A stretch of DNA of 48,181 nucleotides from Chloroflexota bacterium (lineage in GTDB: Bacteria > Chloroflexota > Anaerolineae > DTLA01): assembly GCA_014874485.1 (NCBI GenBank), contig JADBJK010000015.1:1-48181 (forward strand), given 5' to 3'. The notes under the pieces were generated by a model, which saw only the letters and a program-made list of their open reading frames with translations, ran no database searches and was not told the origin of the DNA. Shown one piece after another: positions 11,005 to 15,899 of the stretch. Each line of letters opens with the position of its first letter. The first letter of the stretch is position 1. The position numbers were made by a program, and so were the translations under genes.

Positions 11005-12138
11005 ATGCGATATCGTCCGTTCGGCAACACCGGAGCCACCGTGAGCGCCCTGGGATTCGGCGCTATGCGCCTGCCCATGACCCCCGACGGGGAGCACGTG
11101 GACGAGGACCGCGCCATTCCGGTCATCCAGCGCGCGCTGGAACTGGGCATCAACTACCTGGACACGGCCCCGTACTACTGCAAGGGCGAGAGCGAAATCG
11201 TGCTGGGCAAGGCCATCAAAGGCTGGCGCGACCGCGTGTACATCTCCACCAAGAACCCGCTGGACAACCCCGACCCGGGCGAGTTCCGCCGGTGGCTGGA
11301 GACGTCACTCCGCAAACTGGACGTGGAGTATATTGATTTCTACCACATGTGGGGCATGAACAAGGTCAAGTACGAGACGATGGTGGGCACGCCCGGCGGG
11401 CGGCTGGAGGAGGCCCGCAAGGCCAAAGAAGAGGGACTCATCCGCCACATCAGTTTCTCGTTCCACGACACGCCCGAAGTCCTGGAATGGTTCATTGACA
11501 CCGGTTACTTTGAGAGCATGACGGTGCAGTACAACCTGCTGGACCGGGCCAACGAGGCCGCCATCGCCCGCGCCGCAGCCCGTGGCATGGGCGTCGTCAT
11601 CATGGGGCCTGTGGGCGGCGGACGCCTGGCCGAGACCTCGCCCGAAATCCGCAAACTCCTGCCCGCGGGCGTGTCGGGAAGCCCCGAACTGGCCCTGCGG
11701 TTCGTCCTGTCGCATCCCGGCGTGCACGTGGCGCTGTCGGGCATGAGCACTGTGCAGATGGTGGAGGAGAACGCCGCCACCGCATCGCGGGAGGAGCCGC
11801 TGAGCGCCGACGAGCGGGCCGCCATCGCCCGCGCCATGGATCAGATGGCCGCGCTGGCCCAACTGTACTGCACCGGCTGCGGCTACTGCATGCCGTGCCC
11901 CAACGACGTGAACATCCCGGAGAACTTCAAGTACATGAACTACTACCGCGTGTACGGCCTGGCCGAGTACGCGCGGCAGGCTTATGCCCAATTGGGCCGC
12001 CCGGGGAGTTGGATCAAGGGCCTCAAAGCCGAGGCCTGCGTCCAGTGCGGCGAGTGCGAACCCAAGTGCCCGCAGCACATCCCCATCATGAAGCAACTGG
12101 AGGAAGTGGCCGAGGTCCTGGGCGGCAAGACTCGCTGA
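11005..12138 (+). CDS. Aldo/keto reductase with C-terminal 4Fe-4S ferredoxin domain
   Basis: A 377-residue NAD(P)H-type oxidoreductase with an electron-transfer tail. The AKR barrel (MRYRPFGNTGATVSALGFG) has the usual catalytic set: Asp and Tyr in LDTAPYY, Lys in YISTKNPLD and His in IDFYHMWGMNK. The last 100 residues hold cysteine clusters CTGCGYCMPCPNDVNIP and CVQCGECEPKCPQHIPI, which should bind 4Fe-4S clusters. This fusion is common in anaerobes, where the substrate is usually unknown. The ATG at 11005 follows a strong GGAGGAGG; an upstream in-frame ATG at 10966 has no such site. It starts 42 bases after the trpD-like gene and is probably co-transcribed with it. Confidence 0.92.
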   Translation: MRYRPFGNTGATVSALGFGAMRLPMTPDGEHVDEDRAIPVIQRALELGINYLDTAPYYCKGESEIVLGKAIKGWRDRVYISTKNPLDNPDPGEFRRWLETSLRKLDVEYIDFYHMWGMNKVKYETMVGTPGGRLEEARKAKEEGLIRHISFSFHDTPEVLEWFIDTGYFESMTVQYNLLDRANEAAIARAAARGMGVVIMGPVGGGRLAETSPEIRKLLPAGVSGSPELALRFVLSHPGVHVALSGMSTVQMVEENAATASREEPLSADERAAIARAMDQMAALAQLYCTGCGYCMPCPNDVNIPENFKYMNYYRVYGLAEYARQAYAQLGRPGSWIKGLKAEACVQCGECEPKCPQHIPIMKQLEEVAEVLGGKTR

Positions 12139-12291
12139 CGAACCGTGGAGTCCGTGTCCATAGCGCAAATTCAGCACCAGCATGGGGAGCCCGCCGAGGC
12201 TGTCCAGAGCCTTCCTCTGCGCTCTCGGCGTTCTCGGCGGTGAATTTCACGTTATCCGGGGGCTTTTCTTTCTCTGATCGGGAGACGACCC

Positions 12292-13065
12292 ATGAACCGA
12301 CGACATTTCATCCGCGCCACCCTGCTCGCAGGTGCGGCCTCGCTGCTGCGGGCCTGCCTCGGCGTCCGCGTGGAGATCACGCCGCCGGCGACCGTGACGC
12401 CGCCCGCGGGGACGCCTGCGCCCTCGCCAACGCCCGCGCCGACCACAGCGCCCACCACCGGCCCGAAACTCCTGGGCAACGAGAACCGGCCGGGGTTCTT
12501 CATCCGCTACTACCGCGCCTTCCCCGCCCCTGACCGCACCGCCTGGCGGCTGCGCGTGGAGGGGATGGTGGAGAATCCGGGGGAGTTTGACTACCAGACG
12601 GTGCTGGGCTGGCCGCGCGTGGCCCAGGTCTCGCGCATGAAGTGCGTGGAGTGCTGGTCGGCCAAGGCCAAGTGGGAGGGGTTCACCTACGACACGCTGG
12701 CTGCCATCGTGAAGCCGCTCCCCACGGCCACGCACGTGCGGTTTGACTGCGCCGACGAGTACTGGGAAGTGGTGTCCATAGAGGAGCTGCGCGCGCCGCG
12801 GGTGCTGTTCGTCCTCAAGATGAACGACGAACTGCTGCCGGATGAATACGGCGCGCCCCTGCGCATGATTCTGCCATCCAAGTACGGGTACAAGGGTGCG
12901 AAGGCGGTGCACACGCTGACGTTCCAGGACAAGGACGGGCCGGGCTACTGGTCATTTGTCGGGCCGTACACCATCAGCGGGGACATTGAGCCGGGCATGG
13001 ATCACCCGCTGGATTTGGGCGGCGGTGCGCGGCCCATCTCCGGCGGCGAGATCACGGAGTACTGA
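12292..13065 (+). CDS. Exported molybdopterin-dependent oxidoreductase (sulfite oxidase / MsrP type)
   Basis: A 257-residue protein with the sulfite-oxidase molybdopterin fold. The N-terminus NRRHFIRATLLAGAASLLRAC combines a twin-arginine motif with a possible lipobox cysteine (C22), then a Thr/Pro-rich linker to about residue 58. It may therefore be a Tat-exported lipoprotein. The Mo-coordinating cysteine is likely C118 in RMKCVECWSAKAKW, with an extra Cys at 121. YGAPLRMILPSKYGYKGAK near 180-200 is the conserved cofactor-binding block. No heme-subunit gene (MsrQ-like) is adjacent. Substrates could be sulfite, oxidised methionine or another oxide. Confidence 0.85.
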   Translation: MNRRHFIRATLLAGAASLLRACLGVRVEITPPATVTPPAGTPAPSPTPAPTTAPTTGPKLLGNENRPGFFIRYYRAFPAPDRTAWRLRVEGMVENPGEFDYQTVLGWPRVAQVSRMKCVECWSAKAKWEGFTYDTLAAIVKPLPTATHVRFDCADEYWEVVSIEELRAPRVLFVLKMNDELLPDEYGAPLRMILPSKYGYKGAKAVHTLTFQDKDGPGYWSFVGPYTISGDIEPGMDHPLDLGGGARPISGGEITEY

Positions 13066-13298: not shown

Positions 13299-13718
13299 CT
13301 AGATGAACAGCGTAATCTTGGAGTCCTTCGCCTCCTGGACGTAGGCCCCGACCGCGCCGTACTCGTCAATCCAGTCCTCGCGCAGGTCCTCTTTGCCCAC
13401 GCCCATGATCTCCATGGTCATCTCGCAGGCGATGACCTTGCCGCCCAGGTCGCGGAACTCCCGCATGAGGGTCTCCAGTTTGGCCACGTTGGCCTTCTGC
13501 ATCCGCCGACGGATCATCCACTTGCCCAGGCCCAGCATGTGCATCTTGGACAGCGGGCCGCGCTCCAGGCCGTTCTTCTTCAGCCGCTGAAGCCCCCAGA
13601 AGGTAAAATACAGGGACGCTTCCATCCCCATGGCAAGCGCCCCTGTACCGATGATCAACGCGCTGTAAATCTTATCATAGTCGCCGCTGTGCACGACGAT
13701 AGTGGCCTTGTCCGCCAT
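13299..13718 (-). CDS. DsrE2-type sulfur-transfer protein
   Basis: DsrE/F family protein of 139 residues, thought to carry persulfide sulfur. It has the membrane-like segment ALIIGTGALAMGMEASLYFTFWGLQ and the conserved cysteine in VIACEMTMEIMGVG (about residue 98), both typical of the DsrE2 branch. It is last in a four-gene operon, 18 bases after tusA. TusA and DsrE2 genes are often adjacent, and TusA is thought to exchange persulfide with DsrE partners. Here the context is Fe-S assembly rather than dissimilatory sulfur oxidation. Confidence 0.88.
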   Translation of the reverse strand: MADKATIVVHSGDYDKIYSALIIGTGALAMGMEASLYFTFWGLQRLKKNGLERGPLSKMHMLGLGKWMIRRRMQKANVAKLETLMREFRDLGGKVIACEMTMEIMGVGKEDLREDWIDEYGAVGAYVQEAKDSKITLFI

Positions 13719-13736
13719 GGTCGGCCTCCTTTCGGC

Positions 13737-13961
13737 CTACTTGCGGATGCGGATACGCCACGTCCCGTCATCCGCGTCGGTGATGTCCAGCAGTTGCAGC
13801 CCCAGGTTCTTGACCGCCATGGGAATCTCCCGCTTGGACGCCTGGTGCGTGCCGACGACTTCCACCACGTCGCCCTCGGCGGCCTTGCGCAGGGCCTTGC
13901 GCGTCTCAATCAGCGGAATCGGGCAGGTCTCGCCCTTCACGTCCACAACAATGTGCGCCAT
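13737..13961 (-). CDS. tusA: TusA-family sulfur carrier
   Basis: A 74-residue cytoplasmic protein that holds sulfur as a cysteine persulfide. The hallmark is VKGETCPIPLIETRKAL, the Cys-Pro motif with the active Cys at about residue 13. The following VEVVGTHQASKREIPMAVKNLG completes the two-layer alpha/beta fold. The ATG at 13961 follows GGGAGGTGCCT. The upstream extension of the open frame overlaps the iscU-like gene and is not plausible. It lies 29 bases after the IscU fusion and 18 before dsrE2, in one operon. Confidence 0.93.
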   Translation of the reverse strand: MAHIVVDVKGETCPIPLIETRKALRKAAEGDVVEVVGTHQASKREIPMAVKNLGLQLLDITDADDGTWRIRIRK

Positions 13962-13990
13962 AGGCACCTCCCGCGCGGCGCAGGCCGCGC

Positions 13991-14638
13991 CTATTCTTCC
14001 TCGTCGTCGTTGAAGATCACGCGCACCTCGGCCACGTCCCACAGCGGCTCCAGGCGCTCGCGAATCTCCTGCTCAATGTTGTTGGCGAACTGGTGATCCC
14101 GCGACAGGTCCACCCACACGGTAATGACGCCGTTGTTCACGTCGGTCTTCTTGACGACGTGGGTCTTGACGATGTCCAGGCCCGTGAGCGGGTTCATCAC
14201 GTGGCGCAGGCGCTTCTCCACCACCTCCACGGTCGTCGGCTCGCGGTCTTCCACCAGGCCGTGCTTCTCCTCGTAGTTGCGGATGGCGGCGCGGAGCGTG
14301 TCCACCGCCAGCACCGAGCAGTGCACCTTGACCGCAGGTAGCCCGCCCAGTTCCTCGGCGGCGGCCTTCCAACTGATCTTGCGGGCCTCGTCCAGCGTCT
14401 TGCCCTTCGCCAGTTCGGTGATGATGGACCCCGTGGCGATGTTGGACGCGCAACCGTAGGACTCAAACTTGATGTCCTTGATGGTCTTGGTCTCCTCGTC
14501 CACCTTCAGGTACAGGGTTACCATATCCCCGCAGGCGGGGCTGCCCTCGGTGGCCTTGGCGTCGTAGTCCTCCAATCGGCCCACGTTGCGCGGGTTCTTG
14601 AAGTGCTCAATCACTTTTTCGCTGTACGGAATCGGCAT
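13991..14638 (-). CDS. IscU-type Fe-S scaffold fused to a DUF59 (MIP18-like) domain
   Basis: A 215-residue fusion. Residues 1-125 are an IscU scaffold with all cluster ligands: C36 and D38 in GSPACGDM, C63 in YGCASNIA, and H106/C107 in VKVHCSVLAVDTLRAAI. The chaperone-binding LPPVK of the E. coli protein reads LPAVK. Residues 136-210 match the DUF59 / Mrp N-terminal fold (RLRHVMNPLTGLDIVKTHVV), a domain used in Fe-S maturation factors, but the usual CP pair is RDHQFANN here. It follows the IscS-like gene after 88 bases containing a hairpin. The normal bacterial IscU is about 130 residues, so the fusion is notable. Confidence 0.88.
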   Translation of the reverse strand: MPIPYSEKVIEHFKNPRNVGRLEDYDAKATEGSPACGDMVTLYLKVDEETKTIKDIKFESYGCASNIATGSIITELAKGKTLDEARKISWKAAAEELGGLPAVKVHCSVLAVDTLRAAIRNYEEKHGLVEDREPTTVEVVEKRLRHVMNPLTGLDIVKTHVVKKTDVNNGVITVWVDLSRDHQFANNIEQEIRERLEPLWDVAEVRVIFNDDEEE

Positions 14639-14677
14639 AAGTTCTATCCCTCCAAAGTTTTCGCCATTGGCTATACG

Positions 14678-14707
14678 CCATTAGCCTTTGGCCCTTCGCT
14701 AATGGCC
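14678..14707. repeat. Intercistronic inverted repeat
   Basis: GCCATTAGC (14678-14686) and GCTAATGGC (14699-14707) form a 9-bp stem with a 12-base loop between the iscS-like and iscU-like genes. No T-run follows, so a terminator is unlikely. An mRNA-stability or processing hairpin is possible. Confidence 0.5.
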
Positions 14708-14726
14708 AGAGGCCAACGGCTATCGG

Positions 14727-15899
14727 CTACTTTTCATCCTTACCCAGCGGGCTGATGCGACGCAGGGTTTCAATGACTTCCGCTGTGGCTTCTATCACGC
14801 GGTCCACTTCCTCCACGGTGTTGTAACGGCTCAGCGAGTAACGGATGGAGCCGTGGGCCAGTTCGTGGGTCTTGCCCATGGCCATCAGCACGTAACTCGG
14901 CTCCAGCGAGCGGCTGAAGCAGGCCGAGCCCGTTACCACGGCGATGCCCATCATGTCCAGGTGGAGCAGCGTGGACTCACCCTCGGCGTAGTGGAACGAG
15001 ACGTTGACATTGCCCGGCAGGCGGCGGTAGCGCGGCCCGTTGAGTTCCGTCTTGGGGATGCGCGCCAGGAGGCCGTCAATCAGGCGGTCGCGCAGGCTGG
15101 AGATGTACTCCACCTGCGTGGCGCTGGTCATCTCCACGGCCTTGGCGAACCCCACGGCACCTGGCACGTTCTCCACGCCGCCCCGCATGTTGAACTCCAT
15201 GAACCCGCCGTGCATCCACTTGGCGATGGGCGTCCCCTCGCGCACGTACAGCGCGCCGATGCCCTTGGGCCCGTGAATCAGGTGCGCCGTGATGGTTACC
15301 AGGTCGGCGGGCGTCTCGGCCAGGTTCAGCGGGACCTTGGTGAACGTGTGCGACGCGTCGGTATGAAACGCCACGCCCCGCTCCTTGACAATCGCCGCGA
15401 TGGCGTCAATGTCCTGAATCGTGCCCACCTCTTCGTTGGCGTGCTGGATGGAGACGAGGAACGTGTCGTCGGTGATGCTCTCGCGCAACTGGTCCAGGTC
15501 CACGAACCCCTCGCCGTCCACGTCCAGGTAGGTAACCCGCACGCCTTCTTTCTCCAGAGCCTGGGCGGTGTCCAGCACCGACCGGGACTCAATCTTGGAG
15601 ATGATGAGGTGGTTCTTCTTGCCGCGGAAGGCGCGCGCCATGCCCTTGAGCGCCCAGTTGTTGGATTCGGTCTCGCCCGACGTGAAGATGACTTCTTCGG
15701 GTTTGGCCGCGCCCAGGGCCTGGGCGATGGTGACGCGGGCGGCATCCAGCGCCTCGCGGACCTCAATCCCGGGCGAGTGGCTGAACTGCGACGACGCCAC
15801 CGCGTACTTCTCGGTGAAGAAAGGGAGCATGGCTTCCACGACGGCCGGGTCCACCCGCGTCGTCGCTGCGTTATCCATGTAGATGATTTCGTTCTGCAT
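14727..15899 (-). CDS. IscS-like protein lacking the PLP lysine
   Basis: A 390-residue aminotransferase-fold protein aligning end to end with cysteine desulfurase IscS. The active cysteine is kept (C327 in TGSACFSRSLEPSYVL), as is the PLP-stacking region Asp (D181). But the Schiff-base lysine (K206 of E. coli, in SGHKIYGPKG) is Leu207 in TAHLIHGPKG. The PLP-contacting His104 is Ser105 (IESRSVLD), Gln183 is His184, and Asn155 is Glu156. Desulfurase activity is therefore unlikely. Archaeoglobus fulgidus IscS also lacks this lysine and is thought to donate a Cys ligand to an IscU-bound cluster. It is first in the operon; the promoter and operator lie at 16024-16084. Confidence 0.92.
   Translation of the reverse strand: MQNEIIYMDNAATTRVDPAVVEAMLPFFTEKYAVASSQFSHSPGIEVREALDAARVTIAQALGAAKPEEVIFTSGETESNNWALKGMARAFRGKKNHLIISKIESRSVLDTAQALEKEGVRVTYLDVDGEGFVDLDQLRESITDDTFLVSIQHANEEVGTIQDIDAIAAIVKERGVAFHTDASHTFTKVPLNLAETPADLVTITAHLIHGPKGIGALYVREGTPIAKWMHGGFMEFNMRGGVENVPGAVGFAKAVEMTSATQVEYISSLRDRLIDGLLARIPKTELNGPRYRRLPGNVNVSFHYAEGESTLLHLDMMGIAVVTGSACFSRSLEPSYVLMAMGKTHELAHGSIRYSLSRYNTVEEVDRVIEATAEVIETLRRISPLGKDEK

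Follow-up and report, generated by a model that had tools for sequence, protein, structure and literature searches.

What does an IscS-like protein contribute to an operon of Fe-S and sulfur-carrier genes once its Schiff-base lysine is gone, and from where does the sulfur then come? The question is raised by a stretch of 48,181 nucleotides from a Chloroflexota bacterium of the class Anaerolineae, which we refer to in its entirety as the window. Four of its genes run in one direction, in the order IscS-like protein, IscU fusion, TusA-like protein and DsrE2-like protein, with gaps of 88, 29 and 18 nt, and a fifth gene converges on them:

14727-15899, minus strand: IscS-like protein, 390 aa (Pfam Aminotran_5, 250 bits)
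13991-14638, minus strand: IscU fusion, 215 aa (Pfam NifU_N + FeS_assembly_P, the latter being DUF59)
13737-13961, minus strand: TusA-like sulfur carrier, 74 aa (Pfam TusA, 80 bits), with C13 in its CPxP motif
13299-13718, minus strand: DsrE2-like protein, 139 aa (Pfam DrsE_2, PF13686, 119 bits), with a single conserved cysteine, C98
12292-13065, plus strand: molybdopterin (SUOX/MsrP-like) oxidoreductase, convergent neighbour of the operon

The oxidoreductase probably lies outside the operon, which it adjoins in three lineages (the window, L074:4939-5751 and L091:2177-2893). The TusA-like protein scores under the NCBIfam TusA cut-off despite its CPxP cysteine and the DsrE2-like protein falls under the DsrE2 cut-off (63 vs 210); C13 is kept in 32 of 32 relatives of the former and C98 in 27 of 27 relatives of the latter.

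Residues of the IscS-like protein were numbered against a reference that we take to be E. coli IscS, in which H104, N155, D180, Q183, H205, K206, C328 and R354 aligned where expected. Four positions are changed in the window protein (H104 to S105, N155 to E156, Q183 to H184 and K206 to L207) and five are retained: T76 as T77, D180 as D181, H205 as H206, R354 as R353 and C328 as C327, which sits in the mobile-loop motif GSACFSRSLE. The features of a desulfurase that are missing are thus the Schiff-base lysine and the H104/N155/Q183 set, and the one that is present is the mobile-loop persulfide cysteine. The first-pass annotation had listed these same four substitutions together with the kept cysteine, and the alignment bears it out in full. 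Its judgement that the gene is not decaying was also sound. L207 occurs in two more genomes of the genus, whose IscS-like proteins are 98% and 97% identical to that of the window; with three genomes in agreement, the substitution is not peculiar to one assembly, and an error of sequencing or assembly is ruled out as its source. Position 184 is variable within the genus, being Q and not H in one congener. Among the genomes of the genus dN/dS is 0.03-0.05 for the IscS-like gene, which rules out a pseudogene, and 0.03-0.08 for the IscU fusion; TusA is without amino-acid change. Loss of a catalytic residue, taken alone, would fit relaxed selection, a pseudogene or a sequencing error, but given these ratios, the 55 family members that lack the lysine, the conserved operon and the invariant loop and IscU ligands, we attach next to no probability to that explanation. 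The evidence supports a genuine loss of the lysine that extends across the clade and is subject to purifying selection.

Relatives of the window operon are found well beyond its genus. A near-identical locus, L018, comes from an Anaerolineae MAG. Among 396 genomes of the class Anaerolineae, about 39 genomes in more than 10 families encode an IscS-like protein at 53-64% identity; the fused IscU comes after nearly all of these genes, and mostly TusA and DsrE2 do too. At the 39 loci the lysine site is occupied by L (19), T (16), V (2), R (1) or M (1), H104 is replaced by D in 38, N155 by Q in 38 and Q183 by H in 36, and the residues corresponding to window C327 and D181 are invariant. When the IscU fusion was used as the query it was found also in other Chloroflexota; in two of these, whose small genomes are each a single contig, the genes run tusA, dsrE2, IscS-like gene, IscU fusion. 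Three more phyla were sampled, each being the one to which a particular MAG belongs. The fusion is present in 23 of the 147 genomes sampled for a Guaymas Basin MAG and in 4 of the 348 for a Bacillota MAG, and it was found in none of the 246 for an actinomycetotal MAG, an absence that proves little.

The family that results, drawn from three phylum samples, comprises 69 loci for the IscS-like protein. N155 is changed and the loop cysteine is kept in all 69; the lysine is missing from 55 and still present in 14. The IscS proteins outside the family, with that of Archaeoglobus left out, have H104, N155, Q183 and K206 in 28 of 28 cases. The family has the loop signature C-F-S-R/K, and H replaces Y208. 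In E. coli numbering, D180 is invariant, R354 is retained in 63 of 65 and T76, S203 and H205 in most cases, and D104, Q155 and H183 show about 94% conservation within the Lys-less clade; the residue at the lysine position itself varies among L, T, V, R and M. A conserved K-to-L clade, which the earlier reading had proposed to look for, is therefore found as regards the absence of lysine but not as regards leucine, since the site residue varies and the lysine was lost repeatedly. The retention of D180, the phosphate-site residues and R354 suggests that the pocket still binds something. With the D/Q/H set of most Lys-less relatives added, the term 'empty shell' may undersell the protein, and the rebuilt pocket, being itself conserved, may hold another ligand. 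Pairing of the IscS-like protein with the fusion is near-universal rather than proven for each locus: at L057 (G008) a Lys-less protein is present and fused IscU, TusA and DsrE2 were not detected within the 7 kb examined, and L090 has no visible IscU but stops at a contig edge.

A tree of the IscS-like proteins, built with the catalytic columns removed, gathers the family into one clade with support of 100/100 (99 in a quick tree). A single Lys-less clade within the family, and with it a single loss of the lysine, was rejected (p-AU 9e-51), and by the tree the lysine is lost at least about four times: in a large clade to which the window genus belongs, in the pair L167/L168 (R), in L159 (L) and in L178 (R). 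Among the cases known from a single genome there could be sequencing errors. Support for placing the window genus in the large D/Q/H clade is weak (84/54). In the Lys-containing members N155 has already gone, and H104 or Q183 is often altered too; since N155 is absent from the family while the lysine is still there, loss of the lysine is a late and repeated step. Archaeoglobus IscS falls among the canonical proteins in the best tree. A lysine loss in common with it was rejected by the AU test (p 1.7e-46), and its placement as sister to the whole family was not (p-AU 0.315). On these data the archaeal protein is best regarded as an analogue, rather than a shown family member, that lost its lysine separately.

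Neighbouring genes in the relatives were counted only with tblastn or Pfam support. Of the 31 Lys-less loci flanked by 3 kb or more on each side, 27 have TusA nearby and 21 have both TusA and DsrE2. DsrE2 is beside none of the 14 Lys-containing loci, taken at any length, so only Lys-less members have it. Kinship among the loci makes all these counts non-independent. The tusA-dsrE2 linkage is kept, in either order, in Chloroflexota and in the two further phylum samples. Ferritin is encoded at 12 loci, mostly within the operon, and one family has cysK, an extra NifU_N protein and a CysE-FeS_assembly_P fusion directly upstream of it. The partner genes in the relatives thus point to iron, Fe-S clusters and sulfide as the business of the locus. 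Several further arrangements were seen. In about nine loci a non-heme ferritin gene lies between the IscS-like gene and the fused IscU (for example, L083:6441-6935), and the fusion of CysE, a serine acetyltransferase, to FeS_assembly_P upstream of the IscS-like gene (L083:8157-9155) recurs in L062, L063, L068 and L086. At about ten loci an HMA-domain P-type (copper-like) ATPase is encoded downstream of dsrE2 (L064:5895-8480 and relatives). An Rrf2-type regulator and nadA stand beside the Lys-containing members L169, L170, L173, L177 and L166, and in four of these five the IscS-like protein has G, A or N at H104 and D at N155.

The partner of the IscS-like protein is a complete scaffold. The window protein has the ligands C36, D38, C63, H106 and C107, and C36, D38, C63, K104, H106 and C107 are kept in 64 of 64 full-length fusions. 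It had been called an IscU fusion from the outset, correctly, and the fused domain can now be named: residues 132-214 of the predicted structure match DUF59/CIAO2B proteins (Z about 10-11), giving a DUF59/MIP18 fold, and the N-terminal part matches the Archaeoglobus IscU chain 4eb5_C (Z 24.3). No conserved cysteine is present in the fused FeS_assembly_P/DUF59 domain. The model of the IscS-like protein matches NFS1/IscS (Z 46-50 over about 365 residues). Both models come from shallow alignments (7 and 4 sequences, with one model in five good) and support the fold only; the cysteine loop has a pLDDT below 50, and the geometry of the pocket was therefore left unread.

In the window genome, which is 95.7% complete, the fusion is the sole NifU_N protein found, and a canonical IscS/IscU pair was not found. 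A search of the window genome and two congeners at E <= 1e-60 found no canonical IscS, a protein that most of the other operon-bearing Chloroflexota do encode. The SufBD core is represented in the window genome by one protein with a weak match (57 bits), and a SufC-like ATPase and a DUF59 protein of the SUF-associated kind are encoded nearby (L179, G000 C38), a set that appears to resemble a minimal SMS-type system. The second, Lys-containing IscS or SufS for which the first-pass annotation had proposed a search of the genome exists in part: no canonical IscS was found, but two class-V proteins do have the lysine, a SufS-like one that is under its cut-off and a TIGR01977 one. Because such proteins exist, other enzymes could still supply TusA with cysteine-derived sulfur, and cysteine may still be the ultimate source. 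The TIGR01977 cysteine-desulfurase-like protein is encoded about 6.5 kb from selA (L143:3959-5110 and 11572-12957) and scores 403 bits against the SclA selenocysteine lyase, under the cut-off.

E. coli IscS loses its desulfurase activity upon any one of the substitutions H104Q, Q183E and K206A (PMC9978102). Since four positions are changed in the window protein, there is strong reason to infer that it should not be a desulfurase; and, with both the loop cysteine and the ligands of IscU conserved, the complex with IscU would still use that cysteine. We consider it probable, and a good deal more so than any alternative, that the IscS-like protein is a non-desulfurase platform which receives sulfur through TusA/DsrE2 or as sulfide and offers C327 to IscU. 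The IscS-like dimer would dock onto the IscU portion of the fusion, bringing C327 to the assembly site. The sulfur would not come from cysteine bound to the IscS-like protein itself; it would reach the complex either as sulfide or as a persulfide carried by TusA, which would have been charged by way of DsrE2 or by some other desulfurase or sulfurtransferase. C327 would then hand on sulfane sulfur or act as a temporary cluster ligand, and the fused DUF59 domain probably aids cluster hand-over or targeting. TusA and IscU compete for binding to E. coli IscS (PMC11302665); H2S supports assembly on IscU in E. coli deleted for iscS, replacing IscS (PMC13015791); and the SMS system takes sulfide (PMC12192291). 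On sequence evidence C327 may be a ligand donor or a persulfide relay, with either sulfur source, and we somewhat prefer the relay because of the tusA-dsrE2 linkage. The platform reading has to accommodate the 14 Lys-containing members, which could have some PLP chemistry, and those Lys-less members beside which DsrE2 or TusA is absent. The first-pass annotation had proposed a structural IscS shell on which clusters are fed from sulfide or from TusA and DsrE2; the lost lysine, the invariant loop cysteine and the IscU ligands agree with this, and it is the word 'shell' that the D/Q/H pocket may outgrow. A more elaborate form of the proposal, put forward tentatively, is that the pocket has been rebuilt for another ligand and that the loop cysteine passes TusA/DsrE2 sulfur to a scaffold with its own delivery domain.

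The precedent cited for a structural role is real: Archaeoglobus IscS is without the lysine and without desulfurase activity, and it supplies a cysteine ligand to an IscU-bound cluster (PMC7585200). Were the bacterial protein purely a ligand donor of this type, sulfide and iron would assemble on IscU, C327 would only complete the coordination, and TusA and DsrE2 would serve elsewhere, for example in tRNA or Moco sulfuration. The use of sulfide by IscU and by SMS, the cysK and cysE-like genes upstream in one family and the single, low-scoring SufBD-core protein of the genome are all in keeping with such an arrangement, but it leaves unexplained the repeated tusA-dsrE2 linkage in three phylum samples, and we regard it as possible and clearly less probable than the platform. 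Alternatively, the protein might still be an enzyme of changed chemistry, with PLP, PMP or another phosphorylated ligand held non-covalently in the D/Q/H pocket and another substrate turned over or sensed. This would suit the invariant D180, the largely retained T76, S203, H205 and R354, and a D/Q/H set conserved without drift. That conservation could, however, be structural, and the residue at the lysine position drifts, unlike a new catalytic residue, so we think the idea improbable.

It is more doubtful still that the protein is a regulatory decoy that binds IscU and/or TusA, competes with canonical IscS and tunes the flow of sulfur. Most relatives do encode a canonical IscS, and the competition between IscU and TusA for IscS supplies a means; but no such competitor was detected at the threshold used in any of the three genomes of the window genus, the protein shares its operon with a complete scaffold of its own, and a decoy has no need for an invariant loop cysteine.

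The closest known counterpart of the window protein is IscS of Archaeoglobus fulgidus (4eb5), another Lys-less IscS fold with a mobile-loop cysteine and an IscU partner, at 43% identity and with Z 46.7 to the model. It differs in keeping H104 and N155 and in having D199 at the lysine site (vs L/T) and L at R354, and its IscU, as solved, is an unfused chain of 153 aa. Methanosarcina acetivorans IscS1, also archaeal and reported to be without the essential lysine (PMC7585200), can be likened by description only; its association with TusA/DsrE2 or with the fusion is not reported in the literature examined. MIS (MisS-MisU) is likewise a pair of IscS-like and IscU-like proteins, without carriers, but a cysteine desulfurase is part of its definition (PMC12192291, PMC11559095), whereas here the scaffold ligands are present and the desulfurase residues absent. 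Adjacent tusA and dsrE2 genes occur in the tusA-dsrE2 and rhd-tusA-dsrE2 units, which are tied to sulfur oxidation by Dsr or Hdr (PMC4175335); here the two genes are tied to an IscS-IscU pair. The C-terminal domain of the fusion shares the fold of the DUF59 proteins SufT and MIP18 (CIAO2B) and, unlike them, is without a conserved cysteine and joined to a scaffold. In the accessible literature, outside which most subscription papers lie, we found no bacterial Lys-less IscS with a fused IscU, and no account of the TusA-DsrE2 operon, the repeated lysine loss or the D/Q/H pocket. The novelty claimed earlier for the four-gene arrangement thus stands within that literature, but the principle of a Lys-less IscS beside IscU was already known from archaea; it is the bacterial family, the fusion and the operon that look new.

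These findings carry a warning for annotation: the window IscS-like protein is under the NCBIfam cut-offs for NifS (467, with 531 needed) and IscS (383, with 643 needed), yet its nearest named families are cysteine desulfurases. A non-persulfide role for a protein of the IscS type has so far rested mainly on one archaeal protein, expressed in E. coli. Bacteria repeat the case: the desulfurase residues have been lost several times, the loop cysteine, IscU and its ligands have stayed fixed, and sulfur carriers have joined the operon. The repeated losses make both the non-catalytic role and a desulfurase-free sulfur supply directly testable in bacteria, and they suggest that many uncultured bacteria may build their clusters with sulfur from elsewhere, using a dead enzyme as the platform.
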